Below, piece by piece: positions 5,751-51,416 of a stretch of DNA of 51,416 bases. A program made the translations under genes and the position numbers. Origin of the DNA: a virus; IMG/VR virus record IMGVR_UViG_3300010938_000053, positions 1 through 51,416 of that record. The stretch is one strand, 5' to 3'. Positions within the stretch are counted from its first letter, which is position 1; each line of letters opens with the position of its first letter. The notes under the pieces are model-generated. The model searched no databases. It worked only from the letters and a program-made list of their open reading frames with translations, and had not been told where the DNA came from.

Positions 5751-6104
5751 ATGATAAACTTAAAAGATTTGCTGAAACTTTATTCGTATTTGCGAAACAA
5801 ATACGGGCCTTATCACGCTCATACACGAGCAATGTTCGTAATCTGTCGAAGTGAGTTTGGCATGCAAGGAGAACACGCTTGCCGGCTGATTAACAGCAAC
5901 ATAGATGTTTTGTCTGACTACGAACAATTGCTATCGACAGAACAACAGGCGCCTGATAACTCAACAGATGAACAAGCCTCTGTTGAACAGAAAGCGCAAG
6001 AAAGCGCCTCTGTTCAACAGCCCGTAGGCGAAAAGCCTAAGCGCCAAGGGCGCCCGCGACGCGGGCACGCAATCAAAAGTACTGGCGGAACTGAACGAAT
6101 TTAA
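5751..6104 (+). CDS. Small protein after TerL with a basic C-terminus
   Basis: 117 residues from ATG 5751; a TTG at 5745 overlapping the TerL stop would add two residues. Residues 1-60 look folded and helical, residues 62-95 are Gln/Glu/Ala-rich and repetitive (EQQAP, VEQKAQESASVQQP), and the end is basic (KPKRQGRPRRGH). Function unknown; a DNA-binding tail is plausible. It is the last gene of the rightward operon, and its 3' end overlaps the convergent gene 6073-6423 by 32 bases. The hairpin GCCCGC-GAC-GCGGGC within its 3' part may serve the convergent transcript. Confidence 0.7.
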   Translation: MINLKDLLKLYSYLRNKYGPYHAHTRAMFVICRSEFGMQGEHACRLINSNIDVLSDYEQLLSTEQQAPDNSTDEQASVEQKAQESASVQQPVGEKPKRQGRPRRGHAIKSTGGTERI

Positions 6105-6423
6105 ATGCGACTGTCTCTGTTCCGTCGTCGTTTTTCGCCACCATGCGCTCGGTGGTGGCAGCAACGCATGGAATGTCGGCGGCCTCGCAAAGTTTCACGA
6201 ACGCATAGACGAACGTCATTTCGCCAGCAATGTTGACGATACCTGCGTCGTCCTTAATTTTTTCAAATATATCTTGCGCAAGTCGCGCGACATCTTCAAG
6301 GCTAGCGTTAGGGTCGATGTCTGGGAAAGGAACATCGATGACGTAGTTAGTGAAAGAGTCTGCTGCATCCCACTGCTCCTGCGACCAGCTGGACGCTGGT
6401 TGATTTGATAAGTTGATGAGCAT
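6073..6423 (-). CDS. Small Rossmann-like protein of a family linked to CRISPR loci, copy 1
   Basis: 116 residues. Motifs: LINLSN at 2-7, PFPDIDP at 32-38, AGEMTF at 66-71, CVAATTER at 86-93 and a C-terminal FVQFRQYF. The alternating strand/helix pattern suggests a small Rossmann-like fold. I recall bacterial proteins with the same motifs (LSNHPS, PFPNIDP, GEMTF, TTER) labelled CRISPR-associated, but this is not Csx15, Csx16 or Csx20 as I know them. A paralogue lies at 10248-10610. A nucleotide or cyclic-oligoadenylate ligand is possible but unproven. It is the last leftward gene, downstream of tRNA copy 1, and overlaps the convergent gene by 32 bases. Confidence 0.75.
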   Translation of the reverse strand: MLINLSNQPASSWSQEQWDAADSFTNYVIDVPFPDIDPNASLEDVARLAQDIFEKIKDDAGIVNIAGEMTFVYAFVKLCEAADIPCVAATTERMVAKNDDGTETVAFKFVQFRQYF

Positions 6424-6451
6424 AACTTAAAAGTTTAGTGGTTAAAAAATG

Positions 6452-6524
6452 CGCTCCCGGCAGGAATCGAACCTGCAACCATCTGATTAGAAGTCATGTG
6501 CTCCATCCGTTGAGCTACGGGAGC
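6452..6524 (-). tRNA. tRNA-Arg(UCU), copy 1, with disturbed anticodon stem
   Basis: 73 bases with a perfect 7-bp acceptor stem (GCTCCCG/CGGGAGC), D arm GCTC/GAGC, T arm GCAGG-TTCGATT-CCTGC and anticodon loop CTTCTAA (anticodon UCU, reading AGA). The anticodon stem is CATGA/TCAGA, so pairs 27-43 and 28-42 are mismatched, whereas copy 2 is perfect. A two-base bulge with pairing shifted to positions 44-45 could rescue it. CCA is not encoded. It is either decaying or specialised. Confidence 0.8.
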
Positions 6525-6527
6525 AAA

Positions 6528-6588
6528 CAGGGCGGCGCGGCGTAAGCAGAAAAAAAAGCTCGCTGTGTGGCGCCGGCCGCCGGTTGGC
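6528..6588 (-). repeat. GC-rich inverted-repeat element, copy F
   Basis: Contains GGGCGGCGCGG near one end and GCGCCGGCCGCC near the other, so it can fold into a long imperfect GC hairpin. A closely similar element lies at 7601-7650 (same GGGCGGCGCGG start and a GCAGAAAA segment) and a more distant one at 10698-10751. It lies directly 5' of tRNA copy 1 on the transcribed strand. It could be a processing or termination signal. Confidence 0.55.
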
Positions 6589-6916: not shown

Positions 6917-7516
6917 TCACTTTGGTAATACGCTCCAAAAGACCTTACGGCTAAACGGAAAGAAAAACTTATAAGTGTCAAGTAACAATCCTCTTTCAGC
7001 CTCTATCACCGAAAATTTGAAGTTCTCATTCATAGTTCGTGTAAACACCTTCCATCCATTCTCTTGCATCCTTATCCCGATGTAACAGCTCAACCCATCC
7101 AAAATGGACAGGTGGAGGCAAGAATTTTCTCCGCTATATTTTGCCTCAATAGCGCTGACATAGAAATCTCCCAGTTCTTCTACATCGTCTTCACTTAACG
7201 GCAAATCGCCGCCAGGAAGGAGGATTCGTATCAACTCCGAACCCATTCCCACGTCTGGAGGTTGGATATCGGAAGCCGACGCCAGGTCGATTACGTACCT
7301 GACTTTTCCAAAATCGGCTGGAATCTGCTCTTCAACAAGAAGTACAATTCTCTCACACCAGGCCATGGCTTCTTTACCAGGCCATTCTTTAATTTTCAAC
7401 TCGCCTTCTCGCGACAGCACTAAGACCAGTGCGTCGCTCTCAAGGACGTTATTTTTTAGGTCTTTTAAAGTTTGAGAGTCAAGCCTCAACACGTGTTTTT
7501 TAGTTCTGAAGTCCAT
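6917..7516 (-). CDS. Accessory paralogue (MDF family) with long C-terminal extension
   Basis: 199 residues. Residues 1-62 are clearly related to the protein starting at 8519: MDF-K, VLSREGELKIKEWPGKEAMAWCE here against VLDDGELRIAQWPGERAMAWCE there (each shown by its core). A second motif, ELIRILLPGG near residue 114, recalls the GDEITLVLPDG ending of the MKH-type proteins. The remaining C-terminal part has no match I know. The start ATG at 7516 is preceded by leader A with a 16-base spacer. No signal peptide or membrane segment. Function unknown; a small host-interaction protein is a reasonable guess given the region. Confidence 0.7.
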   Translation of the reverse strand: MDFRTKKHVLRLDSQTLKDLKNNVLESDALVLVLSREGELKIKEWPGKEAMAWCERIVLLVEEQIPADFGKVRYVIDLASASDIQPPDVGMGSELIRILLPGGDLPLSEDDVEELGDFYVSAIEAKYSGENSCLHLSILDGLSCYIGIRMQENGWKVFTRTMNENFKFSVIEAERGLLLDTYKFFFPFSRKVFWSVLPK

Positions 7517-7532
7517 AACAAATTTAATTTGT

Positions 7533-7589
7533 ACCGCTTCGGGCCGCGGCGGCGGTTGAAGTTTTTCAGCACCCTGCCCGACGGGCGCT
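7533..7589 (-). promoter_or_regulatory. Two-hairpin RNA leader, copy A
   Basis: On the minus strand hairpin 1 is AGCGCCC-GTCGGGCA-GGGTGCT (7568-7589), with one G-U pair. Hairpin 2 is GCCGC-GGCCCGAA-GCGGT, also with a G-U pair. Both would be A-C mismatches if the plus strand were the RNA. The loop sequences TCGGGC and GCCCGA are complementary. The element ends 16 bases before ATG 7516. Confidence 0.75.
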
Positions 7590-7600
7590 GTTTTTTAAAA

Positions 7601-7650
7601 GAGGGCGGCGCGGTCCGAGGCAGAAAAGTTAAGGTTCGGAGCCGGCCGGC
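7601..7650 (-). repeat. GC-rich inverted-repeat element, copy A'
   Basis: Related to the elements at 6528-6588 and 10698-10751. On the minus strand it begins GCCGGCCGGCTCCGAA and ends GCGCCGCCCTC followed by TTTT, so it may act as a weak terminator between gene 7656-7883 and leader A. Confidence 0.5.
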
Positions 7651-7655
7651 AATTT

Positions 7656-7883
7656 TTAGGCTTCAAGCTCGCCTTCGATGACTTTTTTTTCTTTATCAGG
7701 CTGTGTACCTGATAGCCAAACTTTATCGCCATCTGTCTCGGCCGTTAAATTGCCGAAGACTTCGAAGGTTCCGACTCCTCCGATTCGAATCAAGAAAGAG
7801 TCTCTTTTTGATACTATTTCTCCCCAATATGTTTGGATAGAATCCCTTTTAAAGAAATAGTTAGAAATTTTCTTCTTTTTCAT
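7656..7883 (-). CDS. Unknown accessory protein, paralogue of 7962-8210
   Basis: 75 residues. From residue 19 it aligns with the neighbour at 7962-8210: YWGEIVSKRDSF, VGTFEVFGNLTAE and KKVIEGELEA here against SWGEIVAKEFSF, LGTIEVFGWLTAE and KKVIEAELEA there. It is probably a small beta-rich domain. The start is preceded by leader B with an 18-base spacer. No signal peptide, no known family. Confidence 0.7.
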   Translation of the reverse strand: MKKKKISNYFFKRDSIQTYWGEIVSKRDSFLIRIGGVGTFEVFGNLTAETDGDKVWLSGTQPDKEKKVIEGELEA

Positions 7884-7901
7884 TTTTTTACTTGTTTTTG
7901 T

Positions 7902-7956
7902 GCCGCTTCGGGCCGCGGCGGCGGTTGGAGTTTAAGCACCCTGCCCGATGGGTGCT
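7902..7956 (-). promoter_or_regulatory. Two-hairpin RNA leader, copy B
   Basis: Hairpin 1 AGCACCC-ATCGGGCA-GGGTGCT (7935-7956) has an A-U pair where copies D and E have G-C, a compensating change. Hairpin 2 GCCGC-GGCCCGAA-GCGGC. Loops complementary (TCGGGC/GCCCGA). Ends 18 bases before ATG 7883. Confidence 0.75.
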
Positions 7957-7961
7957 TTTTT

Positions 7962-8210
7962 TTATGCTTCAAGTTCAGCTTCAATCACTTTTTTTGATTC
8001 GTTGTAGGTCGTGCCTTCGACGAATATTTTATTTCTTTTTCTTTCGGCTGTTAGCCAGCCGAAGACTTCAATTGTGCCAAGCCCTTTTATACGGAACTCG
8101 AAGGAGAACTCCTTGGCGACTATTTCTCCCCAAGAAGTTCTGATAATCCCGCCCGTGTCGCACCAGTATTTATCGTATGCGTACGGATAATTGGTTATAA
8201 ACCTTTTCAT
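7962..8210 (-). CDS. Unknown accessory protein, paralogue of 7656-7883
   Basis: 82 residues. The C-terminal 57 residues match the downstream neighbour (see 7656-7883); the N-terminal 25 differ (MKRFITNYPYAYDKYW). The two probably arose by tandem duplication together with their leaders. Start ATG 8210 follows leader C by 15 bases. Function unknown. Confidence 0.7.
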   Translation of the reverse strand: MKRFITNYPYAYDKYWCDTGGIIRTSWGEIVAKEFSFEFRIKGLGTIEVFGWLTAERKRNKIFVEGTTYNESKKVIEAELEA

Positions 8211-8225
8211 TTCCTTTTCTTTTGT

Positions 8226-8282
8226 ACCGCTTCGGGCCGCGGCGGCGGTTTTAGTTTTTCAGCACCCTGCCCGAAGGGCGCT
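8226..8282 (-). promoter_or_regulatory. Two-hairpin RNA leader, copy C
   Basis: Hairpin 1 AGCGCCC-TTCGGGCA-GGGTGCT (8261-8282, one G-U) and hairpin 2 GCCGC-GGCCCGAA-GCGGT (one G-U). Loops complementary. Ends 15 bases before ATG 8210. Confidence 0.75.
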
Positions 8283-8303
8283 TTTTCTTGATTCAATAAA
8301 AAC

Positions 8304-8519
8304 TCACTTTTTTTTCTCTTTTTCGTAAACCATAAGTGAAATCTCCTCGCACCAGGCCATGGCCCTCTCGCCTGGCCATTGAGCTATCCTCAGCTCGCCG
8401 TCATCAAGCACGAGAAGAAGTAAGTTGCCCTTACCTTTAGCAATCTCACCGCTCGCGCTTAGCTCTTTCAAAGCCTCTCGGCCGAGCTTTATTTTGTAAC
8501 TTTTCACTTTAAAGTCCAT
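8304..8519 (-). CDS. Possible separately translated MDF-type protein
   Basis: 71 residues starting at Met127 of the fused frame. It is related to the first 62 residues of gene 6917-7516 (shared WPGxxAMAWCE motif) and more weakly to 12483-12734 (LEVSTWPG). It has its own leader D, 16 bases upstream of the ATG, as four other genes in the region do. This is the reason to expect independent initiation here. Confidence 0.6.
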   Translation of the reverse strand: MDFKVKSYKIKLGREALKELSASGEIAKGKGNLLLLVLDDGELRIAQWPGERAMAWCEEISLMVYEKEKKK

Positions 8520-8897
8520 AGTAAAGTTGTTTTGTGCCGCTTCGGGCCGAGCGGCGGTTTTAGTTTCAACGCCCTGCCCGATGGGCGTTTCTAACAAAGG
8601 ATGCCAAGAGTAGCCAGTGCGATAGTCGGGCAGTTCGAACGTTTTCTCACTGCCGTCAGGGAAAACGAGAGTAATCTCGTCGCCCTGTTTTGCTTCGGGA
8701 GCCAAAAGTTCTCCCACACCCTCCTCCTCGACCCATAGATGGTTTTTGAGCCTTTTCGCAACGAGCCTCCGCTCGTCGTGGACATAAACTGAGCCGTCTG
8801 GCTCAATTTCTACAGCGAATTCTGCTGAAATCTGCAAGCTATCCCATCTTATTCTTTCTGCTTGCTCTTTCGAGAGCTTCACTACGTAGTGTTTCAT
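8304..8897 (-). CDS. Fused accessory gene: MKH-type protein read through a leader into an MDF-type protein
   Basis: 197 residues in one open frame. Residues 1-91 match the free-standing 88-aa protein at 10763-11029 up to its end (GDEITLVFPDGSEKTFELP here, GDEITLVLPDGTEKSFVLP there), where that protein stops. Here the frame continues through 11 extra residues, then through leader D translated as protein (residues about 103-126, including ETPIGQGVE and KTAARPEAAQ), and into the MDF-type protein from Met127 (ATG 8519). The fusion therefore comes from loss of a stop codon. The gene starts 2 bases after the stop of 8900-9436. Whether the fusion protein, the separate C-terminal protein or both are made cannot be told. 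Confidence 0.7.
   Translation of the reverse strand: MKHYVVKLSKEQAERIRWDSLQISAEFAVEIEPDGSVYVHDERRLVAKRLKNHLWVEEEGVGELLAPEAKQGDEITLVFPDGSEKTFELPDYRTGYSWHPLLETPIGQGVETKTAARPEAAQNNFTMDFKVKSYKIKLGREALKELSASGEIAKGKGNLLLLVLDDGELRIAQWPGERAMAWCEEISLMVYEKEKKK
8536..8589 (-). promoter_or_regulatory. Two-hairpin RNA leader, copy D, inside an open frame
   Basis: Hairpin 1 AACGCCC-ATCGGGCA-GGGCGTT (8568-8589) differs from the other copies by a second compensating pair (A-U for G-C). Hairpin 2 has a slightly larger loop (GCCGC-TCGGCCCGAA-GCGGC). Loops remain complementary. It ends 16 bases before ATG 8519 and is itself translated in the fused gene. Confidence 0.75.
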
Positions 8898-8899
8898 AT

Positions 8900-9436
8900 T
8901 TACTTCAATCGAATAATAAAGGAAAATAAGAATTCTCCTTTTCTAGAAAATGCGCCTTTCAGACAATTGTCCTCTAGACCGATGCGCCAAATGGGCGCCT
9001 TCGGCGAAAGAAAGACGTGCGGCCCTTTTACAAGCTTAGGCACGTCGTCAACGATAGAAACGCGCCACCCATTAGCGAAGATTTCGACGTCTTCGCTGAT
9101 GGGTGTATTTTCAGACGAAATAAACCCTTCAGTTTCTATTCGTCCCAGATGAGTCGCACTGTCATTCGTGACAACGCGCTCACTCGTATTCAACAGTGCA
9201 GAAAAACTGCAACTGTTAGCAAACGAAATTTCAAACTTGGAAAGATGAGTGGCGTAATCTCTTATTAAATGCGTAAATCTGTCATACACATTGATGACGT
9301 CATCGTCAATGCGAATTGACGACGAATTCGCGCCTAGCCAAAGATTTGCGCCAAGCTCAGTCACGTCGAACGGCAGCGCTTGCTCGTTCAAGTGATAGAA
9401 ATTAAGCGTTCCGAATGATAATGCTGTTTTTTCCAT
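8900..9436 (-). CDS. Unknown accessory protein
   Basis: 178 residues, no signal peptide, no membrane segment, no family I recognise. Residues 30-60 (LWLGANSSSIRIDDDVINVYDRF by position) and 115-160 look beta-rich. It sits 13 bases after gene 9450-10004 and 2 bases before the fused gene, so the three form one unit. Function unknown. Confidence 0.65.
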   Translation of the reverse strand: MEKTALSFGTLNFYHLNEQALPFDVTELGANLWLGANSSSIRIDDDVINVYDRFTHLIRDYATHLSKFEISFANSCSFSALLNTSERVVTNDSATHLGRIETEGFISSENTPISEDVEIFANGWRVSIVDDVPKLVKGPHVFLSPKAPIWRIGLEDNCLKGAFSRKGEFLFSFIIRLK

Positions 9437-9449
9437 AAATTAGTTTTAT

Positions 9450-10004
9450 TTAATTTTTAATGTTTAAAGAAAGGTAAGCACATACTTTTTCATCTCTATA
9501 AACGTCAATTTCGATTCTGTGCAAATTGTCTTTTGTTTTGTCCGATACGCCTCTTAATTCCCATGAACCGAAAAATTCAGCCTGCAGATGTCTATCCGTC
9601 ACGCGGATAGCTTGCTGGGTACACCTGACCTGTACCCGGCCGAAGGTTATCGTTTTTTCGCATTCAGCGAGCATTTCGCTACTAGCGATAAGACGATGAC
9701 ATGTTTCTGTTACATGTGTGCTTATTTGTTTAAATCGCCTCAATAAATCGACCTCCACCACGGCGATAACATCGCCGAGTGTACGCCTTTGTGCTGTTAT
9801 GATTATTTTTTGAGGCTTTTTCGCTTTTTGATGGCTATAAATGCCAGTCACCTTCCAGCTGCAAAAAAGCACCTCAAAACAATGCTCATCAGTAAGCATT
9901 GTCAAACAGTTGATAGAGCGCTCGATTTCGACACTTTCGAAGTCGAAAATGTGAATTTGACCGTCGATAAATTCGTTGGACCGAGCTATTAGCTTCTCTA
10001 TCAT
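9450..10004 (-). CDS. Unknown accessory protein with two internal repeats
   Basis: 184 residues. The first half contains FEVLFCSWKVTGIYS followed by KIIITAQRRT. The second half contains AEFFGSWELRGVSD followed by HRIEIDVYRD, at equal spacing. The protein therefore seems to be two related domains of about 80 residues, each beta-rich. It is the first protein gene after tRNA copy 2. No known family. Confidence 0.65.
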   Translation of the reverse strand: MIEKLIARSNEFIDGQIHIFDFESVEIERSINCLTMLTDEHCFEVLFCSWKVTGIYSHQKAKKPQKIIITAQRRTLGDVIAVVEVDLLRRFKQISTHVTETCHRLIASSEMLAECEKTITFGRVQVRCTQQAIRVTDRHLQAEFFGSWELRGVSDKTKDNLHRIEIDVYRDEKVCAYLSLNIKN

Positions 10005-10031
10005 TTCTCCGTTTTTTTCTTTATTTATATG

Positions 10032-10104
10032 TGCTCCCGGCAGGAATCGAACCTGCAGCCGCCTGATTAGAAGTCAGGTGCTCTATCCGTTGAGCTACGG
10101 GAGC
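10032..10104 (-). tRNA. tRNA-Arg(UCU), copy 2, intact
   Basis: 73 bases, all stems perfect: acceptor GCTCCCG/CGGGAGC, D arm GCTC/GAGC, anticodon stem CCTGA/TCAGG with loop CTTCTAA, T arm GCAGG/CCTGC. Anticodon UCU decodes AGA. CCA is not encoded. The body is nearly identical to copy 1 apart from the anticodon stem, variable loop and a few D-arm and discriminator positions. Confidence 0.92.
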
Positions 10105-10112
10105 CCTTAAAA

Positions 10113-10149
10113 GAGGGCCTTCGGACAACGTTTTGGCCGACAGGCCCTC
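10113..10149 (-). terminator. Hairpin directly upstream of tRNA copy 2
   Basis: 8-bp stem GAGGGCCT/AGGCCCTC with an inner TCGG/CCGA stem. On the minus strand it is followed by TTTT and then the tRNA 5' end. It may terminate transcription of gene 10248-10610 or mark the tRNA 5' boundary for processing. Confidence 0.6.
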
Positions 10150-10208
10150 AAGAAAAAAAACATCACTAAAACCTAAACCATTCTACCATTCTACCGTAGA
10201 TAGAAAAT

Positions 10209-10227
10209 AGCCCGCGCCGCGCGGGCT
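10209..10227 (-). terminator. Short GC hairpin after gene 10248-10610
   Basis: AGCCCGCG-CCG-CGCGGGCT is a perfect 8-bp inverted repeat followed on the minus strand by ATTTTC. Sequence just downstream of the stop resembles the 3' flank of the paralogue at 6073-6423, consistent with a shared origin. Confidence 0.5.
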
Positions 10228-10247
10228 GTGCGCGGTGCGGGCAAGCA

Positions 10248-10610
10248 TCAAAAGTACGGGCGAAACTTCACGAATTTAAACTTAGATGTTTTGCTGCCAT
10301 CCGGGTTTTCCTCCACCACGCGCTCGGTGGTGGCGGCGACGCAAAGGACGCCGGCGGACTGGCAAAGAGATACAAAACAGTGAACGAACGTCATTTCTCC
10401 GGCTACGTGGATGACATGGTTTTCATCTTGATTGTCTTCGACGATTTTGTCGAAGTAATTAAGAGCAAGTCGTTTGACGTCGTCAAGTAAAGCCGTCGGT
10501 TCGATGTTCGGAAAGGGAACATCGACGATTTTGCCGCCTAATGCTTGTGCAGCATCTCGCTGCTCCTCCGACCAGCGGTCGGATGGGTGATTTGATAAGT
10601 TGATAAACAT
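10248..10610 (-). CDS. Small Rossmann-like protein of a family linked to CRISPR loci, copy 2
   Basis: 120 residues, paralogous to 6073-6423 throughout: FINLSNHPSDRWSEEQ at the start, VPFPNIEP, HVAGEMTFVH, CVAATTERVVEE and FKFVKFRPYF at the end. It is closer than copy 1 to the family pattern I recall (LSNHPS, PFPNI-P). Start ATG 10610 is preceded by leader E with an 18-base spacer, which copy 1 lacks. A role against nucleotide-signalling immunity is possible but is inference from family context only. Confidence 0.8.
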   Translation of the reverse strand: MFINLSNHPSDRWSEEQRDAAQALGGKIVDVPFPNIEPTALLDDVKRLALNYFDKIVEDNQDENHVIHVAGEMTFVHCFVSLCQSAGVLCVAATTERVVEENPDGSKTSKFKFVKFRPYF

Positions 10611-10628
10611 AACAGTAGAGTATTTTGT

Positions 10629-10684
10629 GCCGCTTCGGGCCGCGGCGGCGGTTTAGGTTTTCAGCGCCCTGCCCGATGGGCGCT
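10629..10684 (-). promoter_or_regulatory. Two-hairpin RNA leader, copy E
   Basis: Hairpin 1 AGCGCCC-ATCGGGCA-GGGCGCT (10663-10684) and hairpin 2 GCCGC-GGCCCGAA-GCGGC, both fully paired. Loops complementary. Ends 18 bases before ATG 10610. Confidence 0.75.
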
Positions 10685-10697
10685 GTTTTTTTTAAAA

Positions 10698-10751
10698 GAG
10701 GGCAGCACGGCATTGCTGGTCGCTGCTCGCGGTGCGGTGCCGGCCGCCCTC
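10698..10751 (-). terminator. GC-rich hairpin after gene 10763-11029
   Basis: Ends GAGGGC (10698-10703) and GCCCTC (10746-10751) pair, with further GC pairing inside. On the minus strand TTTT follows. Related to the elements at 6528-6588 and 7601-7650. Probable weak terminator between this gene and leader E. Confidence 0.55.
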
Positions 10752-11029: not shown

Positions 11030-11060
11030 AGCTAGCGATGTTTTTTTGTTTTTGTTAGTA

Positions 11061-11126
11061 CAAAGGTAAGACACTGTAAAGCTTCGTGCAAGACTTTTAT
11101 GCGTCATTAACAAATCATTAACAAAT
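11061..11126 (-). promoter_or_regulatory. Promoter P1 with tandem operator
   Basis: On the minus strand: -7 box TACCTTTG (11061-11068), 20-base spacer, TTG (11089-11091), 13 bases, then two abutting copies of an 11-base unit (CATTAACAAAT on the plus strand, 11105-11115 and 11116-11126). This is the Bacteroidetes promoter form with a site one helical turn in period just upstream. P2 and P3 share all spacings. Confidence 0.85.
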
Positions 11127-11203
11127 TGGCGTAAGTTGTAATGATTTGCGACGCTCAAAAGGGTGCAACGCTCCGTCGTACGGCGATTTTCTGCTTAAAA
11201 AAA

Positions 11204-12169: not shown

Positions 12170-12212
12170 GATTTGTAAATTTTAAGCGTTAGTGTTTTTG
12201 TTTTTGTTGATA

Positions 12213-12278
12213 CAAAGGTAATACGCCCTTTTGCTTTGTGCAAGACTTTTATGCTCCATTAACAACTCATTAACATAT
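12213..12278 (-). promoter_or_regulatory. Promoter P2 with tandem operator
   Basis: -7 box TACCTTTG (12213-12220), 20-base spacer, TTG (12241-12243), 13 bases, then CATTAACAACT and CATTAACATAT in tandem (12257-12278, plus-strand reading). Same geometry as P1 and P3, with a slightly degenerate operator. Confidence 0.85.
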
Positions 12279-12307
12279 TACCAGCCTCTTCATGCAAAAA
12301 CCCTTCA

Positions 12308-12734: not shown

Positions 12735-12803
12735 AACAAGAAAAATTTAGGTTGTGAAGAAATAGTGTTGATTGTAGTTGTAGCGCTTCTGCTTTTGTTG
12801 ATA

Positions 12804-12869
12804 CAAAGGTAAGGCAGCACCAAGCTTTGTGCAAGGCTTTTGCGCTCCATTAACAAATCATTAACAAAT
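12804..12869 (-). promoter_or_regulatory. Promoter P3 with tandem operator
   Basis: -7 box TACCTTTG (12804-12811), 20-base spacer, TTG (12832-12834), 13 bases, then two perfect CATTAACAAAT units (12848-12869). The -7 box lies 70 bases before ATG 12734. Confidence 0.85.
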
Positions 12870-12922
12870 AAGCGTGGATACTTAAGGTTTAGCGACTAAA
12901 AATCAGCGCGTTGAAAGATTTC

Positions 12923-13080: not shown

Positions 13081-13737
13081 TCAGAAAGGAAGGTGGCAAA
13101 GGGCTTGGTTTTCTGGCAGCCAGTAGGGCGGGCGGATGCCGTACACCGAGCGCGCGTTTGGGTCTGGTAGCGCTCTCATCAAATTGCCGTCTGCATCGTA
13201 TAAGCTGTAATCCTGCTCAGTTTCTTCAATGATAAAACGTTTAACTAAGCCGTAGCCCTGGGATGCTTTCTTGCCGACATGCGTACAATCAGATAACAGA
13301 CTTTCTATTTCGTCTTTTTTGCCAACACAATACCATTTGACGCTTTGTGCGTGTCGGATATAAATATTGTTATGATATTTCTTGTACCGCCCTCTCGATG
13401 TGTCTATTTTCCCAGAAGCGCGAAGGTTGATGTAATCAGAATGTTCTAAATCAAAAGTCTTATTGTAAAAAGCTTTCGTCGTTGCGCACCTGTCAGGCCA
13501 AATACAAAAAGAAGCCTTGTAAATTTCTTCGCCGTTACACAATATTTTTTCGATTGGCAGTTGCGCATCTTTTATTTTTTGCTTTACATCGTCTGTAACG
13601 CATGACGACAAAGTCAATTCTTCTTGCCCGTACTTGTTTTTCAAGTATAATGACAGTATTAAGCTGTCAAACGGCAAATAGAAGTCGCTTGAGCAAACGG
13701 GAGAAGTGAGATGTGCTGTTATGACTAAGTTCTTCAT
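13081..13737 (-). CDS. Csf3-like RAMP protein (Cas5-like, type IV CRISPR)
   Basis: 218 residues. An N-terminal strand LVITAHLTSPV is followed by LPFDSLILSLYL. The glycine-rich loop VGKKASQGYG (154-163) is the RAMP signature. Then EETEQDYSLYDADGNLMRALP and GIRPPYWLPENQALCHLP (about 200-217). The order (N-terminal L-SP, central G-rich loop, D-S and MR-LP, PPYW near the end) matches the type IV Cas5-like protein Csf3 as I know it, which caps the crRNA 5' end in the effector complex. Here there is no csf2 (Cas7), csf4, csf5 or array. It overlaps the methyltransferase stop by ATGA. Assignment is from memory of the family. Confidence 0.6.
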   Translation of the reverse strand: MKNLVITAHLTSPVCSSDFYLPFDSLILSLYLKNKYGQEELTLSSCVTDDVKQKIKDAQLPIEKILCNGEEIYKASFCIWPDRCATTKAFYNKTFDLEHSDYINLRASGKIDTSRGRYKKYHNNIYIRHAQSVKWYCVGKKDEIESLLSDCTHVGKKASQGYGLVKRFIIEETEQDYSLYDADGNLMRALPDPNARSVYGIRPPYWLPENQALCHLPF

Positions 13738-14204
13738 TTCAAAAAAAATGAATAGACAACGCTGCTGTTTTCGCTGCTAAACGTCATTTTAAATGCTTTA
13801 ATATCCTCTCTTGCAACGCATGAAAACAGCTTGTTTTTATCAAATTGATAATATGATACAGTTAAAAAGATAACTGTTTTCTCTAAACAAGAATCCAAAA
13901 CAGCATTAAAAAAAGACCAGTCTACGCGATAAGGGTCAAAATCGACGACGTTACACGAAGCGCACAAATCGACGTGCTCTACACAGTCGCTTTCTATCAG
14001 TGTAACGTTGTCAGATTTGAACGCAAACTTGCCTTTTTTTTGCTCAATGCACGTAACACGTTGTGCAACCTTTGACCACAGATGCGCAGTGATTAAGCCC
14101 GTTCCAGCGAAAAAATCGACAACTCTGTAGGGCTGTTCGACAAAAGAAAGCCCTTGTTGCCGAATCTTTATTTTTTCCTTGAGCGTCGAGTTGTCGGATG
14201 GCAT
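13734..14204 (-). CDS. Small SAM-dependent methyltransferase-like protein
   Basis: 156 residues from ATG 14204, which overlaps the upstream stop as TAATG; the in-frame ATG at 14249 would overlap the previous gene by 46 bases. SAM-binding motif I is VVDFFAGTGLITAHL (about 28-42), with acidic Glu54 after the next strand, Asp73 in ESDC and motif IV VDFDPYR (87-93). DPY in place of DPPY/NPPY resembles proteins with a D-DP[YF] motif such as some tRNA and phage methyltransferases. No target-recognition domain is visible. It lies between the Csf1-like and Csf3-like genes with coupled translation, so the three products may act together. Substrate unknown. Confidence 0.75.
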   Translation of the reverse strand: MPSDNSTLKEKIKIRQQGLSFVEQPYRVVDFFAGTGLITAHLWSKVAQRVTCIEQKKGKFAFKSDNVTLIESDCVEHVDLCASCNVVDFDPYRVDWSFFNAVLDSCLEKTVIFLTVSYYQFDKNKLFSCVAREDIKAFKMTFSSENSSVVYSFFLK

Positions 14205-14602
14205 TATCGAAGGAAAAGATGCCGCTGGCCGCTCTCTGCGATGATGCACACGTCTAAGCTCTTCGACAAGAGCAAATCGAGCATTTCTTCCTTCTTGTCT
14301 TTACCAAGCGCAACCCAACTGTTATCATAAACAAAATGTGAATAGTTGCGAAAGCGTTGTGGCTTGTCTTTTCCCACTTTTTTTGCTATTTCTTCGCTCT
14401 GTTCGTCAAAGCAAAACAATGCCTCATTACTGACTATGTCGCCCTTTTTTAATAAAGCATAGTCAGTAAATGTGTTGCGAACCCATTCGTCGAATTTTAT
14501 TCCCACTGATTCTTTACCTGTCACAACACAAACGCCTCGTTGTTGTCCGTAGGTGGGCTTCGACGAACACTCGTATATGTATTCGCAACAGTGTTTATTC
14601 AT
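14204..14602 (-). CDS. Csf1-like protein (type IV CRISPR), without a clear zinc finger
   Basis: 132 residues from ATG 14602; upstream in-frame ATGs lie beyond the promoter. Residues 21-60 (GVCVVTGKESVGIKFDEWV and NTFTDYALL) and the end (QRFRNYSHFV, IIAESGQRHLFLR) follow the order I recall for Csf1: a CxxC-like knuckle, an FTD motif and a C-terminal SGQ-H element. The second Cys of the usual CxxC is Thr here, and later Cys (C64) has no partner, so zinc binding is doubtful. The TATATTTG box ends only five bases before the ATG, implying a nearly leaderless mRNA. First gene of a three-gene operon. Family assignment tentative. Confidence 0.5.
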   Translation of the reverse strand: MNKHCCEYIYECSSKPTYGQQRGVCVVTGKESVGIKFDEWVRNTFTDYALLKKGDIVSNEALFCFDEQSEEIAKKVGKDKPQRFRNYSHFVYDNSWVALGKDKKEEMLDLLLSKSLDVCIIAESGQRHLFLR

Positions 14603-14606
14603 ACTG

Positions 14607-14639
14607 CAAATATATGTCTGTTTAGACAAAAAAAACAAA
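14607..14639 (-). promoter_or_regulatory. Promoter of the Csf-like operon, near-leaderless
   Basis: -7 box TATATTTG (14607-14614), a 21-base spacer and TTTG (14636-14639) on the minus strand. This is a perfect match to TAnnTTTG. The start codon at 14602 lies within the expected distance of the transcription start, so the message would have almost no leader. No CATTAACAAAT operator is present. Confidence 0.75.
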
Positions 14640-14687
14640 GGCCAGCTCTTTTGCCGGCCAAACATAGTCAATATACGTTCACAAACC

Positions 14688-15086
14688 CTATTTTTTGTTG
14701 AATGCAAGCCCTTTAGTGCTCAACCAACGGAACAAAATGTTGGCTAGTGAAAACACGGCGAGGATAACGCCCTGATAATCCTGGCCAAACAACGAAACAA
14801 AAAAGCGATAAAGGTTTTGAAACACCTCCGCCGGCACGCTGGGCAGAAGAACTAACACAATGTTAGCAATGTATACCCATATGTTCGCGTCTGTTAGCCA
14901 TGCTCTAAGGTCTGGCCTTTTAATAAGGGTGCGAATTGCACCTATAAACGCAATAATCGACACGCCGGCTGCGAACACATTTGTCACGACGTCTGCGCTC
15001 AGTGCAAACAGTCCGCCGACCAACAGCGCAACGTTCAGCCAGAAGTTCGTCGACTGGGTCGAGAACTTAACATTGTTGTTACTCAT
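14688..15086 (-). CDS. Putative holin
   Basis: 132 residues with three to four hydrophobic segments (about 15-35, 38-55, 68-85 and 100-120), a short polar N-terminus and a basic C-terminus. Size and topology fit phage holins. It overlaps the preceding gene by 8 bases. Its distance from the endolysin (44.3 kb) is unusual, and small membrane proteins near the endolysin are alternative holins. Confidence 0.6.
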   Translation of the reverse strand: MSNNNVKFSTQSTNFWLNVALLVGGLFALSADVVTNVFAAGVSIIAFIGAIRTLIKRPDLRAWLTDANIWVYIANIVLVLLPSVPAEVFQNLYRFFVSLFGQDYQGVILAVFSLANILFRWLSTKGLAFNKK

Positions 15087-15969: not shown

Positions 15970-18900
15970 TTAGTTTGATGTTAACTTATAACCTCGAATA
16001 GTAGAAGTTCCATATACAATGTACGCCCATTCGCCCGCGTTCACAGTGTTGAACGTCGAAGCGTTAGCTTTAGTTACTGATTGCGAAAGCGTTACAACAC
16101 TCGACGCAGATACGTTGTGTATGACGTATTGCCGCCCTGCACATGCGCATGAAGATGCGGTTGGAATAGTCAATGTAACATTAGATGTTCCTGTAAACAC
16201 GACAGTGTGATGTGTCTCGTTCAGCGTCAATGCACTTGTTGTCTCTGTGTAAGCTGTAGCCAAGCTGCCTGCAACTTGAACAGTGCTGTGTATCTGCGCA
16301 GGGTCTGTTTGTCCAAAGCCCGCGCGCACTTTAGAGCTCGCAGTTGTATGAACAAACGTAACTTTCTCATTTGCAGCATCATAGCCTCCAACAGAAAAAG
16401 CTATTCGAGACGTGTTGTTTGTCGAGTTTAAGTTGATGAATCGAAACACGTCATCCGTAAATCGAAAAGATATCGCGCCGCTGTGCGCTGACACTGTCGT
16501 GCCAAAGCCCAGCCTTGTTTCTCCATGTCCTTCTGATTGATACAACAGTGCTGTTAATCCCGCAACACCCGTACCTGTAAGGCCAGACGAACCCACCGTG
16601 AAGCGCGCAGCAGGATTTGAAGCGCCAGCGCCAATGGCGACGTTGCCGCCTCTTGGGTTTATGTGCAAAGGAAAATATATGTTGAATGTGTCGTTGTTTC
16701 TTGCCTGTAACCAAAGCCCGTTCGCTTGTGTCGCCATCGCGCCTATGGCTAACACTTGTTTTGTCGAGTTGCCGGCCGACGTTTCGCCGCCGAACTCGGC
16801 GATGGCATCTGTAGTAGGCGTTATCCCTGTTGTTGGATTAGCCGCAACACCTCTGACAGAAAAATACTGTCGCCAGTTAGTCCCTGCAACATTATATCGC
16901 GAATACCTAAAGTTTAATCTTCTCAACTGCAAATAGAACTCACTCGTTCCACCTTCTATCGCGACATTCTCTAACAGCGTGCCGCCCAGGCGGGCGTTGT
17001 TGTTGTTGACATATAGACCGCTCTCTGCACCTGCAAGTCCACCGCTTGTCGCAGATAGTATGTTGCCCGACAGTGTTAAGTTAGAACCAACCGTTATCGC
17101 CGCCACTTCTCCGTCTGCGTTTCTGCCCATCAGTGTCGTCGCCGTGCCCGTCGACCCTGTGAGCCTCATTGTTCCATCAACAAATAGTCTATGTGTAGAC
17201 GTTGTCGCCGCAGGTCCTAAACCCAAACGACCTCTTAAATGCGAATACACCGTGTCGCCGTTGGGCTGCCAGAGAAAGCGCCCAACAGCGGGCTGATATA
17301 ACCAGCCATGCAATTGTCCTTTCAAACTGATAATGTTTGGGTTAGAGCGTATCATATAAACGTCCTGATTAGATGTTGACGTCTGATTGATTTCGCCTGT
17401 GTGAAATAGATAAGCAAAGTTCCCGCCCGGGTTGACGGGATAATAGCGAGGCGATAGATTTAACAAATTGGCATTAGACGACGTACTTGTTATTGTGTTT
17501 ATAGGATAAAACACTATTTGATTTAATTGTGAAGCGCCACCTACCGGCTCAAGGCGGATTTGTGATTCGGCGGCGAGCTTCAGCGTAAATGTGTCGGCGT
17601 ATATGTTTGACGAGCCGGACACATTGCCCAAAAACAAGCCTTTGTTTGTTGGTCCTTGTGTGATTATCTGTACGCCGTCTGTTGCTGTCACTTGTTTGAT
17701 AGCGAGCTTGTATGGCGAAACAGGCAACGTATTAATTCCTATCCCAATTACATTGTTTGTCAGCATACTTGACGTAACAAGTGTGCTGCCGTTGTATCGA
17801 AGTGTCTGTGCATCAGAGCCCGCCGGCGGCGATATAACGTAAGGGTTTGGCGTTGTACCCGTCCCGGTTACCTGTATGCCGTTGGCGCCCTGCACTTTCG
17901 TCTCACTCCCGTCTCCGCCTGTTGCGTTTATTGTTAAATTTGTTGACGTCGCACTGAGCGTTACGTTTGTTCCTGCTGTTATTGTTACGTCCGCGCCTGA
18001 TGAACTGTTAAGTGTGACAGGTGATGATGTGCCCGAAAAACTTAAGTCTGTTGTTCCTGTATTATCCGCAGCCGGAGCCCATGACGTACCGTTCCACTTG
18101 AGTACCTGCCCGGTAGTTGCACCCTGCTGCGCGATGTCCAGCGGACTTGACAATGTCCCGTTGCCCGATAGCCGAGCCGTCACCTGTGCAACCTGCGTCC
18201 CCCAGTTGTCGCCGGGCAGCGTCACTGTGTTGCCGTTTGATATTGTTAAGTTCTGACCCGCAACACTAAGTGTTTGATTATCACTGTCGTTCGCCGGCTC
18301 CCAAGCCGTACCGTTCCACTTAAGCACCTGACCGTTCGTTGCGCCTTGTTGCGCAATGTCAAGAGGGCTTGACGATGTACCGTTGCCAGATAACCGAGCC
18401 GTTACCTGTGCAACCTGCGTCCCCCAGTTGTCGCCCTGCGCATTGATTATCAGGTTAGTAGACGTTGCGCTCAACGTCACGTTCGTACCTGCTGTAATCG
18501 TCACATCTGCACCCGTCGAGCTGTTTAATGTGACAGGCGACGACGTGCCAGTATACGATAAATCTGTGTTGTCTTTATATTGAGCAAGATTGACAAACTT
18601 AAACGGCTCGTTGTCTTTACTGATAGACAATCGCAAAGTGTCATTTACTATGCTAAACGTATCTATCACTTGAATTTCGTTTGTCGTATCGCCGTCAACT
18701 TCTATTGCGCTTATAATTAGCGTATTTGCCGGACTTTCGTTTAGCGTAATAATACCGCCAGGCGCAATAGTCACGCCTTGGCCGTTTGTTATGTCTATCG
18801 TGTAAGTTGGCCCATCTCCTCCTATTGAAAGGTCTTGATTATCTGTGTTAATTGCGTATTTATTCAAATGCCACCAGGCGCCGTCCCGCCAGCGATATAA

Positions 18901-19203
18901 GCTATCGCAATCGTTGATGACGACATAGCTTTGTTTGTCAACAGGAGTGTAGTTAGGCTTTACACAACCGACAACTCGCTGAATGCGAAATCCTGCTGGT
19001 ATCCAAAAGCCGAAGTCCCTTGAATATTCCCACCAAAACCCTGTTGACGTGTCTATGCCCACCTCTGCGTCGTAACACACGTTAACGGGCATCGTGGGCT
19101 CTACTTTAAAGTAATGAATGCCAGTGCCCTTGGCGCTCTGTGTTTGCGCGAAAATAGATTGACAGAAAAAAACAAGAATAATTAAGATTATTTCTCTGTT
19201 CAT
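15970..19203 (-). CDS. Large secreted tail-fibre-like adhesin with internal repeats
   Basis: 1077 residues. A Sec signal peptide (NREIILIILVFFCQSIFA-Q, cleavage before Gln20) precedes an N-terminal domain of about 110 residues shared with gene 19210-21072 (AEVGIDTSTGFWWEYSRDFG, TPVDKQSYVVIN, DSLYRWRDG). Then come Thr/Ser/Gly-rich beta repeats: SPVTLNSSTGADVTITAG units and two 74-residue modules with GQVLKWNGT-WEPA. The C-terminal third is Ala/Gly/Thr-rich, ending in strands. The architecture is that of receptor-binding fibres, but a signal peptide is unexpected in a virion protein. It could be displayed on the cell surface, or assemble from the periplasm at lysis. Confidence 0.8.
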   Translation of the reverse strand: MNREIILIILVFFCQSIFAQTQSAKGTGIHYFKVEPTMPVNVCYDAEVGIDTSTGFWWEYSRDFGFWIPAGFRIQRVVGCVKPNYTPVDKQSYVVINDCDSLYRWRDGAWWHLNKYAINTDNQDLSIGGDGPTYTIDITNGQGVTIAPGGIITLNESPANTLIISAIEVDGDTTNEIQVIDTFSIVNDTLRLSISKDNEPFKFVNLAQYKDNTDLSYTGTSSPVTLNSSTGADVTITAGTNVTLSATSTNLIINAQGDNWGTQVAQVTARLSGNGTSSSPLDIAQQGATNGQVLKWNGTAWEPANDSDNQTLSVAGQNLTISNGNTVTLPGDNWGTQVAQVTARLSGNGTLSSPLDIAQQGATTGQVLKWNGTSWAPAADNTGTTDLSFSGTSSPVTLNSSSGADVTITAGTNVTLSATSTNLTINATGGDGSETKVQGANGIQVTGTGTTPNPYVISPPAGSDAQTLRYNGSTLVTSSMLTNNVIGIGINTLPVSPYKLAIKQVTATDGVQIITQGPTNKGLFLGNVSGSSNIYADTFTLKLAAESQIRLEPVGGASQLNQIVFYPINTITSTSSNANLLNLSPRYYPVNPGGNFAYLFHTGEINQTSTSNQDVYMIRSNPNIISLKGQLHGWLYQPAVGRFLWQPNGDTVYSHLRGRLGLGPAATTSTHRLFVDGTMRLTGSTGTATTLMGRNADGEVAAITVGSNLTLSGNILSATSGGLAGAESGLYVNNNNARLGGTLLENVAIEGGTSEFYLQLRRLNFRYSRYNVAGTNWRQYFSVRGVAANPTTGITPTTDAIAEFGGETSAGNSTKQVLAIGAMATQANGLWLQARNNDTFNIYFPLHINPRGGNVAIGAGASNPAARFTVGSSGLTGTGVAGLTALLYQSEGHGETRLGFGTTVSAHSGAISFRFTDDVFRFINLNSTNNTSRIAFSVGGYDAANEKVTFVHTTASSKVRAGFGQTDPAQIHSTVQVAGSLATAYTETTSALTLNETHHTVVFTGTSNVTLTIPTASSCACAGRQYVIHNVSASSVVTLSQSVTKANASTFNTVNAGEWAYIVYGTSTIRGYKLTSN
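18070..18435 (-). repeat. Two direct repeats of about 143 bp, 222 bp apart
   Basis: Positions about 18071-18213 and 18293-18435 are highly similar (long identical stretches, including the last 30 bases). They encode the modules with SPLDIAQQGAT and GQVLKWNGT. Related DNA lies at about 20240-20310 and 23535-23605 in other fibre genes, so the module has spread by recombination. Confidence 0.8.
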
Positions 19204-19209
19204 ATTTGT

Positions 19210-21072
19210 TTAATCTATTGCTACCCACTGCAGCCAACTGCCCTGCTGCACAGTTGTGTCTTTGTTCTGTGCAGTGAACTGTGCCCACTGCATGTTCACT
19301 GTTCTGTTTGCCGAGCCCGACACGACAACTGCAGATATGCGCACAAAGCCGTGCTCACTAGTCGCTCCATTTGTCTCGTACGTTCGCATTGTGCCAGACG
19401 CCTGGTTAATCGTATACGAAAAATCAAACACTGCTCCCGTCATGCCTGCCCGAACGAGTGTTGCGCCTGTCGCTTCGATTTGAAACTTTATCTCAGAGCC
19501 GTTGGCGTTTGTCACAAATATGTGATACTCCGCTAAGCAGCGCTTATTCGCAGGGCAAGTAAACGTCAAATGGTCGTCATTTTGAAAGGTGGTACTGTTG
19601 TTGACGATTTCATCTGCATCTTTAAACACAAACGTGGGCGCATTTCCGCCACTCGGACCTGTTGAGGGCGCCCAAGCAGTACCGTTATAACGCAGATAGT
19701 CGCCTGCAGTTGCGCCTGAAAAGTTTATCGACACGTCGCTATCTCCTGTCACAATAGTAAGCTCCCTGTCTGTCGTTAAATTTTCGTTAACTGTTATTCC
19801 TAACGTATTGTCGTTATTGTTGTCTTTAATGTAAAGTGAGCCTGCATTTGCAACTATTGTGCCTCCTGTTATATTCACATTGTTTGCGTTTTGTGTCGCT
19901 ATAGAGCCCAACCCAAGCGTGTTTCGCTGTGCAGCAGCGTCCGCATCGTCGAGCAAAGCTTTGCCCGCTGCCGTCACGTCGCCGCCCATTTTTGCCGTAG
20001 AGACGACGCCGTTGTCTATCGTCCATATGTTACCGCCGCCCGACACCGTGATGTCTCCCTTATCACCATCCGACACACCACCTGACGAACTGATTGTCAG
20101 GTTGTTAGAAGTTGCACTTAGCGTTATGTTTGCGCCTGCAGTTATCGTCACATCTGCACCAGTCGAGCTGTTCAGCGTAACAGGCGATGAAGTACCCGAG
20201 TACGACAAGTCAGTGTTCCCGCCGCCACCCGAGCCAGTTTCATCGTTTGCCGGCGCCCAGGCGGTGCCGTTCCATTTGGGCACCTGGCCGACGGCAGCGC
20301 CGGACTGCGTCAAGTCTGACAAACTGTGTGTGTGCGATATATTTGCTTTGTTGTTTAATTGCGTTTGGATAGAAGAAGTGACGCCGTCCAAATAACCGAA
20401 CTCTGTGTTATCAACAAAGCCGGCGGCAATCTTTGTCGCCGCAATGCCCGAAGCTATTTTTGCATTTGTGACAGCATTGTCTTCAATGCCCGCCGTCGCC
20501 ACCTGGCCAAAGCCCAGCGTCGAGCCCGACCTACGCAACACATGCCCATCTGTCGCAGCAGTGATGTCCGCCACATTGCCCGTGCTGTTCACACTCCTCC
20601 CGACGACAGACAGCCCTGCAGACTGTCTAAACTTGACGTTTGTCACCGTGTTGTCGTTTATCGTCCACGTCGCGCCTGAATTTGTCACAGTAATATCACC
20701 TTTATTTCCATCTGTTATCCAGCGATTTATATGTCGCCAGGAGCCTGCACGATAGAAATACAAACTATCTGCATTGTTGACGACGATAATGCTCTGTTTG
20801 TCAGCTGGTGTGTAGATAGGAGCCGTTGTCGCATTGTGAAGCTGAACGCGATAACCCGCCGCTATCCACCCTAGCGAACGCGAACGCTCATGCCACAGGC
20901 CTGTCGTTGTGTCTATCGCCACCTCTGTGTCAACGTTGACGTTGACCGCATGTGTAGGCGCTCCAGAAGTGTACACAATGCCACCGCCCTTCACAATGCC
21001 TTGCGCAACAGACGTTGCGCTATAAAAAAAACAAACAGAAAAAACAAAAACAACAAAAGCATGCTTGTTCAT
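19210..21072 (-). CDS. Secreted tail-fibre-like adhesin, paralogue of 15970-19203
   Basis: 620 residues. Signal peptide with cleavage before Gln24 (SATSVA-Q). The N-terminal domain is shared with 15970-19203 (EVAIDTTTGLWHERSRSLG, TPADKQSIIVVN, DSLYFYRAG). The middle has SGAAVGQVPKWNGTAWAPAND and SPVTLNSSTGADVTITAG modules. The C-terminal 130 residues form a separate beta-rich domain (NNSTTFQNDDHLTFTCPA near its start), possibly a C1q/TNF-like or carbohydrate-binding jelly roll. It starts 2 bases before the stop of 21074-22201 in the operon order. Role: host adhesion, inferred. Confidence 0.8.
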   Translation of the reverse strand: MNKHAFVVFVFSVCFFYSATSVAQGIVKGGGIVYTSGAPTHAVNVNVDTEVAIDTTTGLWHERSRSLGWIAAGYRVQLHNATTAPIYTPADKQSIIVVNNADSLYFYRAGSWRHINRWITDGNKGDITVTNSGATWTINDNTVTNVKFRQSAGLSVVGRSVNSTGNVADITAATDGHVLRRSGSTLGFGQVATAGIEDNAVTNAKIASGIAATKIAAGFVDNTEFGYLDGVTSSIQTQLNNKANISHTHSLSDLTQSGAAVGQVPKWNGTAWAPANDETGSGGGGNTDLSYSGTSSPVTLNSSTGADVTITAGANITLSATSNNLTISSSGGVSDGDKGDITVSGGGNIWTIDNGVVSTAKMGGDVTAAGKALLDDADAAAQRNTLGLGSIATQNANNVNITGGTIVANAGSLYIKDNNNDNTLGITVNENLTTDRELTIVTGDSDVSINFSGATAGDYLRYNGTAWAPSTGPSGGNAPTFVFKDADEIVNNSTTFQNDDHLTFTCPANKRCLAEYHIFVTNANGSEIKFQIEATGATLVRAGMTGAVFDFSYTINQASGTMRTYETNGATSEHGFVRISAVVVSGSANRTVNMQWAQFTAQNKDTTVQQGSWLQWVAID

Positions 21073-21073
21073 A

Positions 21074-22201
21074 TTACAATGTTCTTCTTTTTTTAGTTCC
21101 TGCTGGCCAACCGTAAGTGTTCGTGTTTAACAATAAATAGTACTGTCCAACAGACACGCCGCCAGCGGCTGCGTGGGCGTCGTTATTGTAGTAAGGAAGT
21201 GTGCTGTCGTCGTCACAGCACACAGGCGAATCGCCCTCCTCTGTCGTCGCCGTGCTGACAACGCGCACCGCGCCCGCCGGCGCGCCGTACGTGTTATCAG
21301 TTGACATACAATAGAAATTACCTATCTGAAGCCCTCCCGCTTGCGCTGCAGCGTCATTCGCATAACTAAACAGCGAGACATTACAAACTAAACTGTCGTT
21401 GTCGAAGTTTGCGTAAACTGCTTTGACAAAGCCGTACAACACGCCGTAGAAGTTGTTGATTTTCAAAGCATAAAGTTGCCCTGTAGGAATGTTGTTACTC
21501 TGTGCTGCTGCATCGCTTTGAAAAAAGCGAATAGGCGCACTACAGACATAGCCGCACCCAACAACGACCTTATACATACCGACTGGCAGAGCAAGCGTGT
21601 TGCCCTGGGCAAGTAGGTAAGTCTTGCCAGGCGCCAAACCTGCGGTAATGGCGTCGTTGTCGTTCAAGTAATAGGGCAAATCGTTAAAAATGTGCGACTG
21701 AAACACGCGGGAAGGATACCAATAACTGCCCACCCACCTTAAGTAGCTCATCGTATCCGCGCCAAACTGGCCGATGGTGACGGGATTGGCCAACGTTCCC
21801 TTTCCGACAATCGGCGTATCTACTTGTATTTCAACGCTGTCTACAACTGCACTTAGCGCACAAGCGCAATTAGTGCTGTCGATAAAGTGCTGCATCGTCG
21901 CAAACTGCGTCGCGCTGCGCTCAATGCGTATCTGCTCGCCATTTGGCAACAGCTCCCTGAAAGTCAGCGCTTCAAAGTTCTGAATGATGATGTAGGGCTC
22001 GTCTATCCAGCGATGCGGCACGCCTAACCTTCTGATAATGAGCCCTCTAAACGTTCGAGACTGCGTTGACGTATTGCACACGTCGCAATTACCCGCCGAC
22101 GCCGTCAGCGTTCCGCACACACATTCAAACGTGAATGTCGGCTGTGCGACAATCGTCGCAATAGACAAGCATAAAAAACAAACAGAAAAAAACGCCTTCA
22201 T
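21074..22201 (-). CDS. Secreted protein with four C-terminal 40-residue repeats
   Basis: 375 residues from ATG 22201; the longer frame to 22387 runs into the Gly-rich gene. Signal peptide MKAFFSVCFLCLSIATIVA-Q. A Cys-rich segment follows (CVCGTLTASAGNCDVC), then a central domain. The C-terminus has four units of the form D-A---G---G-xY-L---N-YG-P-G--KVV, for example NDAAAQAGGLQIGNFYCM and NDAHAAAGGVSVGQYYLL. Each unit may be one turn of a beta structure. Third of the four Q-rule proteins in a row. Confidence 0.75.
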   Translation of the reverse strand: MKAFFSVCFLCLSIATIVAQPTFTFECVCGTLTASAGNCDVCNTSTQSRTFRGLIIRRLGVPHRWIDEPYIIIQNFEALTFRELLPNGEQIRIERSATQFATMQHFIDSTNCACALSAVVDSVEIQVDTPIVGKGTLANPVTIGQFGADTMSYLRWVGSYWYPSRVFQSHIFNDLPYYLNDNDAITAGLAPGKTYLLAQGNTLALPVGMYKVVVGCGYVCSAPIRFFQSDAAAQSNNIPTGQLYALKINNFYGVLYGFVKAVYANFDNDSLVCNVSLFSYANDAAAQAGGLQIGNFYCMSTDNTYGAPAGAVRVVSTATTEEGDSPVCCDDDSTLPYYNNDAHAAAGGVSVGQYYLLLNTNTYGWPAGTKKRRTL

Positions 22202-22255
22202 CGTTATATTTGCATCTGCGAACCGAAGGCGAGAGGACACGGTCCTATGTTGATG

Positions 22256-22281
22256 CCCTGGCAAAAGTGCCAGGGTTTTTT
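22256..22281. terminator. Hairpin after the Gly-rich gene; T-run on the plus strand
   Basis: CCCTGGC-AAAAGT-GCCAGGG followed by six T residues in plus-strand reading, with an A-run before it in minus-strand reading. It lies between two leftward genes. It could end antisense transcription or act as an RNA stability element for the leftward message. Confidence 0.5.
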
Positions 22282-22283
22282 GT

Positions 22284-23207: not shown

Positions 23208-23210
23208 CTC

Positions 23211-51131: not shown

Positions 51132-51416
51132 ACATAAAAACATTTAGGGTAAGATACCCAAACTGGTTTGCGCAGCTGATAGACGATGCAAACGGCACAG
51201 CAAGAAAGATGCGATTGCCCGTAAGGCTGACGAAGCAAGATGCGCTTGTTTACTTGTTTAAAGCATACGCAGACATGCGCATAAACGTCCGGCCGGTGCT
51301 TCAGTTAGCGTTCGACGAAGCGCAGCGGCATCGAGAGGTGTGTCGCAAAGAAAAGAAGAGACTTTCGCTAAACAATCTAAGCGAAGAAAAATATTCCACA
51401 CACGCCTACGTCAAAG
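51128..51416 (+). CDS. N-terminal part of a 157-aa unknown protein that crosses the genome ends
   Basis: Starts in the ATGA overlap with the nuclease gene (ATG 51128). 78 residues are encoded before position 51361, and the frame continues at position 1; the last 55 bases repeat positions 1-55. N-terminus MNIKTFRVRYPNWFAQLIDD. See the C-terminal entry at 1-240 for the rest. Unknown function, part of the replication operon. Confidence 0.85.
   Translation, partial: MNIKTFRVRYPNWFAQLIDDANGTARKMRLPVRLTKQDALVYLFKAYADMRINVRPVLQLAFDEAQRHREVCRKEKKRLSLNNLSEEKYSTHAYVK
51362..51416. repeat. Terminal direct repeat, right copy
   Basis: Exact copy of positions 1-55; see the left copy. Counting the repeat once gives a genome of 51,361 bp. 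Confidence 0.95.

Follow-up and report, generated by a model that had tools for sequence, protein, structure and literature searches.

A two-hairpin RNA element with complementary loops repeated before five accessory genes of a probable Bacteroidota phage

What is the role of a structured RNA leader that a phage carries five times, each time directly before a small accessory gene? The question is raised by a single IMG/VR record (IMGVR_UViG_3300010938_000053), whose full 51,416 b constitute the window analyzed here and, as one genome, the whole evidence base. The record carries a perfect 55-nt terminal direct repeat (1–55 = 51362–51416) and is therefore probably a complete phage genome, so that five is probably the full number of copies of the element. 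Genes for a terminase, a DnaB-like helicase, a head protease, and a tape measure protein are present. The terminase and helicase have matches at roughly 25–35% identity only, and terminase peptides gave zero matches in IMG/VR; judged by these comparisons, the phage is otherwise unknown and has no close relative. The host phylum is probably Bacteroidota, as indicated by minus-strand TTG-N-TTACCTTTG-type promoters (at 12834, 12243, and 11091), gene starts without clear Shine-Dalgarno sites, best matches of the tape measure protein that include Flavobacterium phages, and relatives of Csx20 that are nearly all from Bacteroidota and neighboring phyla. Elsewhere in the genome, the tail-fiber region (17923–23605) contains coding segments of 78–143 nt that are repeated over several ORFs with 65–86% identity.

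All five copies lie where the earlier note had placed them, every one as minus-strand RNA, and form leaders of about 57–60 bases within a minus-strand gene run that extends from 11029 down to 6073 and includes two tRNA-Arg genes. Element A (7533–7590; hairpin 1, 7590–7567; hairpin 2, 7553–7533) leads the gene at 6917–7516 (199 aa), element B (7902–7957; 7957–7934; 7922–7902) the gene at 7656–7883 (75 aa), element C (8226–8283; 8283–8260; 8246–8226) the gene at 7962–8210 (82 aa), element D (8536–8590; 8590–8567; 8555–8536) the gene at 8304–8519 (71 aa), and element E (10629–10685; 10685–10662; 10649–10629) a Csx20-like gene at 10248–10610. The hairpin-1 core matches five times vs. 0.09 expected from shuffles, and a covariance model run on the 51.4-kb record finds exactly five copies (E values of 1e-24 to 3e-31; next match, 0.018). 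The constant distance to the ATG that had been described is borne out: the end of hairpin 2 lies 16 (A), 18 (B), 15 (C), 16 (D), and 18 nt (E) from the start codon, whereas the gap on the other side, to the preceding gene, ranges from about 0 to 77 nt. An ACAAA stretch at about −18 to −11 from the start is identical in all copies (none of five positions vary). Copy D is in frame within ORF 8304–8897, which spans the upstream MKH-family gene, D itself, and the downstream gene, the last starting at an internal ATG; a fusion protein is possible from this frame, with D potentially translated through from upstream.

Several familiar identities do not fit the element. No open frame for a leader peptide is conserved across the five copies, and the copy spacings (369, 324, about 310, and about 2093 nt) lack the regularity of a CRISPR array. 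ARAGORN and the Rfam tRNA model give no match to the element, and there is no acceptor stem; the only matches to 4227 Rfam models at curated thresholds are the two tRNAs of the genome, in agreement with the earlier statement that no described element of this form was known to its author. No minus-strand intrinsic terminator (GC-rich stem plus U run) is called at the elements.

Hairpin 1 (7–8 pairs) has UCGGGC in its loop and hairpin 2 (5 pairs) has GCCCGA, and all six loop–loop pairs are possible in 5/5 copies. The chance of a 6-bp match between such loops is about 0.4–1.3%, and the five identical copies count as one observation rather than five because the loop pairs never vary. For the same reason the kissing complex deduced earlier from these loops lacks the support of covariation: the complementarity stands, but the six pairs are invariant and for C and D another fold is predicted to be preferred. 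The predicted fold of A, B, and E consists of two hairpins, and the predicted minimum of C and D is one extended imperfect helix built on the same loop complementarity; folding z-scores range only from −1.3 to −2.9. On its own, the 6-bp loop helix would contribute about −10 kcal/mol with penalties not included, so that the kissing form could be favored in every copy, and the linkers of 11–16 nt between the hairpins may be long enough to span a stacked kissing rod.

The stems are more informative. Covarying changes had been claimed, and this holds for hairpin 1, in which three pairs are changed on both sides (alignment columns 9–32, C-G/A-U, unpaired in C and D; columns 11–30, G-C/A-U; columns 13–28, G-C/G-U/A-U); hairpin 2 has only wobble changes. 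The covariation is suggestive and, coming from five related copies, statistically not strong, with 43 of 500 shuffles reaching the same level. In the frame of ORF 8304–8897 the changes at columns 13–28 are synonymous third positions, which underlines how thin the evidence from five related copies is. The odd pairs of A and C are G-U on the minus strand and A×C on the plus strand, as had been observed, which supports the minus (coding) strand as the RNA strand. The same mismatch weighs on the idea that hairpin 1 is a plus-strand intrinsic terminator halting antisense transcription into the accessory genes. A T6–T8 run follows hairpin 1 in A, B, and E, and a terminator scan accepts B and E with their full 8-bp stem; however, the A×C mismatch falls in A and C, the T run is absent in D, and neither hairpin 2 nor the distance to the minus-strand starts is accounted for, making such a terminator quite improbable.

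The element appears confined to this phage in the collections that were searched: IMG/VR, INPHARED, PLSDB, Rfam, and about 1,180 Bacteroidota genomes yielded no relative. The searches were sequence-led, with exact patterns that would miss a relative with other loops and with Bacteroidota genomes (46 + 393 + 395 + 346 for the covariance model) that are a sample. Exact-pattern scans of IMG/VR for the complete element and for each hairpin separately returned two chance matches, one within a ParB-like gene (L005) and the other within a coding gene (L093). A covariance model built from the five copies, as had been suggested, recovered all five from their own genome as a control, but yielded no convincing match in Bacteroidota: the weak matches (22–32 bits) lack the pair of complementary loops, those that were checked fall within ordinary genes or at their ends, and they were taken as chance. 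No blastn match against phages and plasmids (E up to 10) covers the element, H68 being a coding stretch. IMG/VR protein scans with the terminase, the B/C family, and the MKH family gave no relative, and Csx20 scans of IMG/VR gave two contigs in which Shine-Dalgarno sites are present and the element is absent.

The genes of the cluster form diverged pairs. These are 6917/8304 (43% identity), 7656/7962 (55%), 8591/10763, and the Csx20-like genes at 6073–6423 and 10248–10610 (−), which are 56% identical to each other. The Csx20-like gene after E matches Csx20 of PADLOC at 2e-37 and NCBIfam NF040559 at 4e-10, below the cut-off. Csx20 is a cA4 ring nuclease that has been found in four phage genomes (PMC12409355); the two Csx20-like genes are likely to be counter-CRISPR genes, and a phage copy may act against type III CRISPR signaling. 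The other element-led genes have no family matches. The protein of gene B is modeled as all-strand (pLDDT 73) with no fold match, and the model of the A/D protein is poor (pLDDT 49).

The amount of duplication raises the possibility that the element is a functionless remnant whose similarity reflects recent age only. The whole region consists of duplicated pieces and the element was found in no other genome searched. However, the elements (81–94% identical from copy to copy) are far more alike than the adjoining duplicated genes (63–71% DNA identity between neighboring paralogs), and their stem changes are compensated; we regard a remnant as very improbable. The likeness of the elements also departs from the kinship of the genes: A and C form the closest pair (93.7%), whereas the genes after A and D are paralogs, as are those after B and C. 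This indicates that the elements have been exchanged or homogenized separately from the genes. A DNA-level repeat at which accessory cassettes are shuffled by recombination, with folding secondary, would fit both this pattern and the duplication and reshuffling of gene families, tRNA-Arg, and upstream hairpins throughout the 6–11 kb region, and strand bias alone does not exclude it, because a G-T pair can form in a single DNA strand. Nevertheless, such a repeat is improbable, as the distance is constant toward the following ATG but not toward the preceding gene, and the changes in the stem are compensatory.

The neighborhood of the copies shows what else can occupy their position. Two tRNA-Arg(tct) genes on the minus strand, 92% identical, each lie directly before a protein gene: one (6451–6524) precedes the Csx20-like gene at 6073–6423 and the other (10031–10104) is in the leader position of the gene at 9450–10004. 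A GC-rich minus-strand hairpin ending in GCCCUCUUUU (10695–10750) is directly upstream of E, similar GC-rich units are upstream of A (7597–7655) and of the first tRNA-Arg (6527–6582), and a shorter GC-rich hairpin (10107–10150) is upstream of the second. The two Csx20 loci thus have a homologous upstream GC hairpin and a homologous gene, and the slot between them is occupied by E in one and by tRNA-Arg in the other, a finding that is new beyond the earlier observation. E and the first tRNA-Arg have no sequence similarity. In all, seven genes start 15–27 nt after a compact folded RNA (five elements, two tRNA-Arg).

Promoter sequences suggest that the copies lie within a transcript. The only strict minus-strand match to the Bacteroidota-type promoter close upstream of the cluster is TTG-N-TTACCTTTG at 11061–11091; two relatives are at 12213–12243 and 12804–12834 (−), and no strict match occurs on the minus strand from 11060 to 6073. 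As the sole strict promoter is near the start of the cluster, the copies look intercistronic. At least the first tRNA-Arg and the Csx20-like gene at 6073 may use an unseen promoter, because a canonical terminator is located at 6626–6602. The promoters are themselves part of an 88-nt minus-strand region present in three copies (11040–11127, 12192–12279, and 12783–12870), with TTGCAC...TTACCTTTG and ATTAACAA repeats upstream.

The element looks like a genuine RNA control or boundary module, whose mode of action we infer. Tentatively, and with somewhat less than even confidence, we favor a cis-acting RNA module that marks the cistron boundary, caps the 5′ end, and sets the start site; a boundary or 5′-end function is preferred because of the intercistronic position and the exchange with tRNA. 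In the proposed scheme, the module would be copied before five accessory genes within a minus-strand polycistronic transcript; its two hairpins would form and may lock via their loops; and the element would reach as far as the upstream border of the ribosome footprint, passing the conserved ACAAA to the start region. A structured 5′ end could thereby be given or protected just before each start codon, possibly through cleavage or end protection, in the manner of tRNA punctuation, and each accessory gene may be translated from its own stable message. The scheme is consistent with a spacing that is constant to the ATG but variable to the upstream gene, with hairpin-1 changes that are compensated, with wobble pairs that fit the coding strand alone, with an identity among the elements above that of the paralogous genes, and with ACAAA, which coincides with the region in which adenines favor initiation in Flavobacterium; there, translation correlates with the presence of adenines at −14 to −11 (PMC6847099). 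In Prevotella, a hairpin placed at −20 left translation undiminished (PMC3155529). Counting against the boundary module are the invariant loops, the extended helix in C and D, the modest z-scores, the possible translation through D, the start-region accessibility that in silico is independent of the element, the terminator at 6626–6602, and the lack of a homolog.

Translation or processing control, proposed earlier from the spacing, is plausible, but a simple switch that occludes the start site finds no support, since start-region accessibility stays the same when the element is deleted or shuffled in silico. The same result led to the rejection of insulation of the ribosome-binding site by the element. 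The main rival, rather unlikely in our judgment, is a shared operator: an RNA-binding protein of phage or host would read hairpin 2 together with the invariant loops, and the five genes would be co-regulated in translation as one regulon. The 12 loop positions and ACAAA are invariant, and the changes in the hairpin-1 stem are compensated, a pattern of sequence-specific recognition, and the invariant loops favor an operator almost as well as a boundary. Genes for type IV Cas5-like (Csf3) and Csf1-like proteins, members of families that bind small RNAs elsewhere, are located at 13.1–14.7 kb; however, nothing links a candidate binder to the element, Csf3 and Csf1 could serve something else, and the site stops 15–18 nt before the ATG, with no overlap with the start. 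The Csf3-like gene (13081–13737, −; PADLOC 4e-53) has zero matches among INPHARED phages, the Csf1-like match (14204–14707, −) is weak (2.6e-6), and between them is a methyltransferase-like ORF (13734–14249, −) with weak Erm/RsmD-type matches. No CRISPR-like array was found among the direct repeats, and no Csf2 was noticed.

Known systems share parts of the boundary module. As in tRNA punctuation of polycistronic transcripts, a folded unit lies between cistrons directly before a start, and tRNA-Arg and E occupy the same slot of duplicated loci; unlike a tRNA, the element has neither acceptor stem nor tRNA match, and cleavage at it is only putative. The early region of T7 has repeated intercistronic RNase III hairpin sites in a polycistronic transcript, each site being one long bulged duplex of about 20 bp. 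The element likewise repeats intercistronic hairpins in a phage polycistronic transcript, but these are two and short (8 and 5 bp), with putative cleavage; by the standard of a long duplex, A, B, and E have two short hairpins, and the prediction for C and D is an imperfect, extended helix. T4-like phages have PeSL cassettes, short regulatory units that are repeated ahead of small accessory genes and tied to gene shuffling. The element shares the repeated stem-loop in this position; PeSLs bear a promoter, whereas the element has none by the Bacteroidota consensus, the only one tested. The kissing hairpins of ColE1 RNAI and RNAII form about 6 loop–loop pairs, as those of the element are able to, but here both hairpins are in one leader and the pairing is without covariation support. 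That the phage has made a punctuation of its own, with a kissing two-hairpin RNA replacing tRNA between cistrons and defining and capping the 5′ ends of a set of counter-defense messages in a non-Shine-Dalgarno host, is doubtful.

Exchanging the element for a tRNA would be a direct test of the role of the slot. If the boundary function is true, cistrons in Bacteroidota, which do not use Shine-Dalgarno pairing, would be readied for translation by a portable RNA part, and the case would show how a phage handles a block of small accessory genes that are partly counter-CRISPR.
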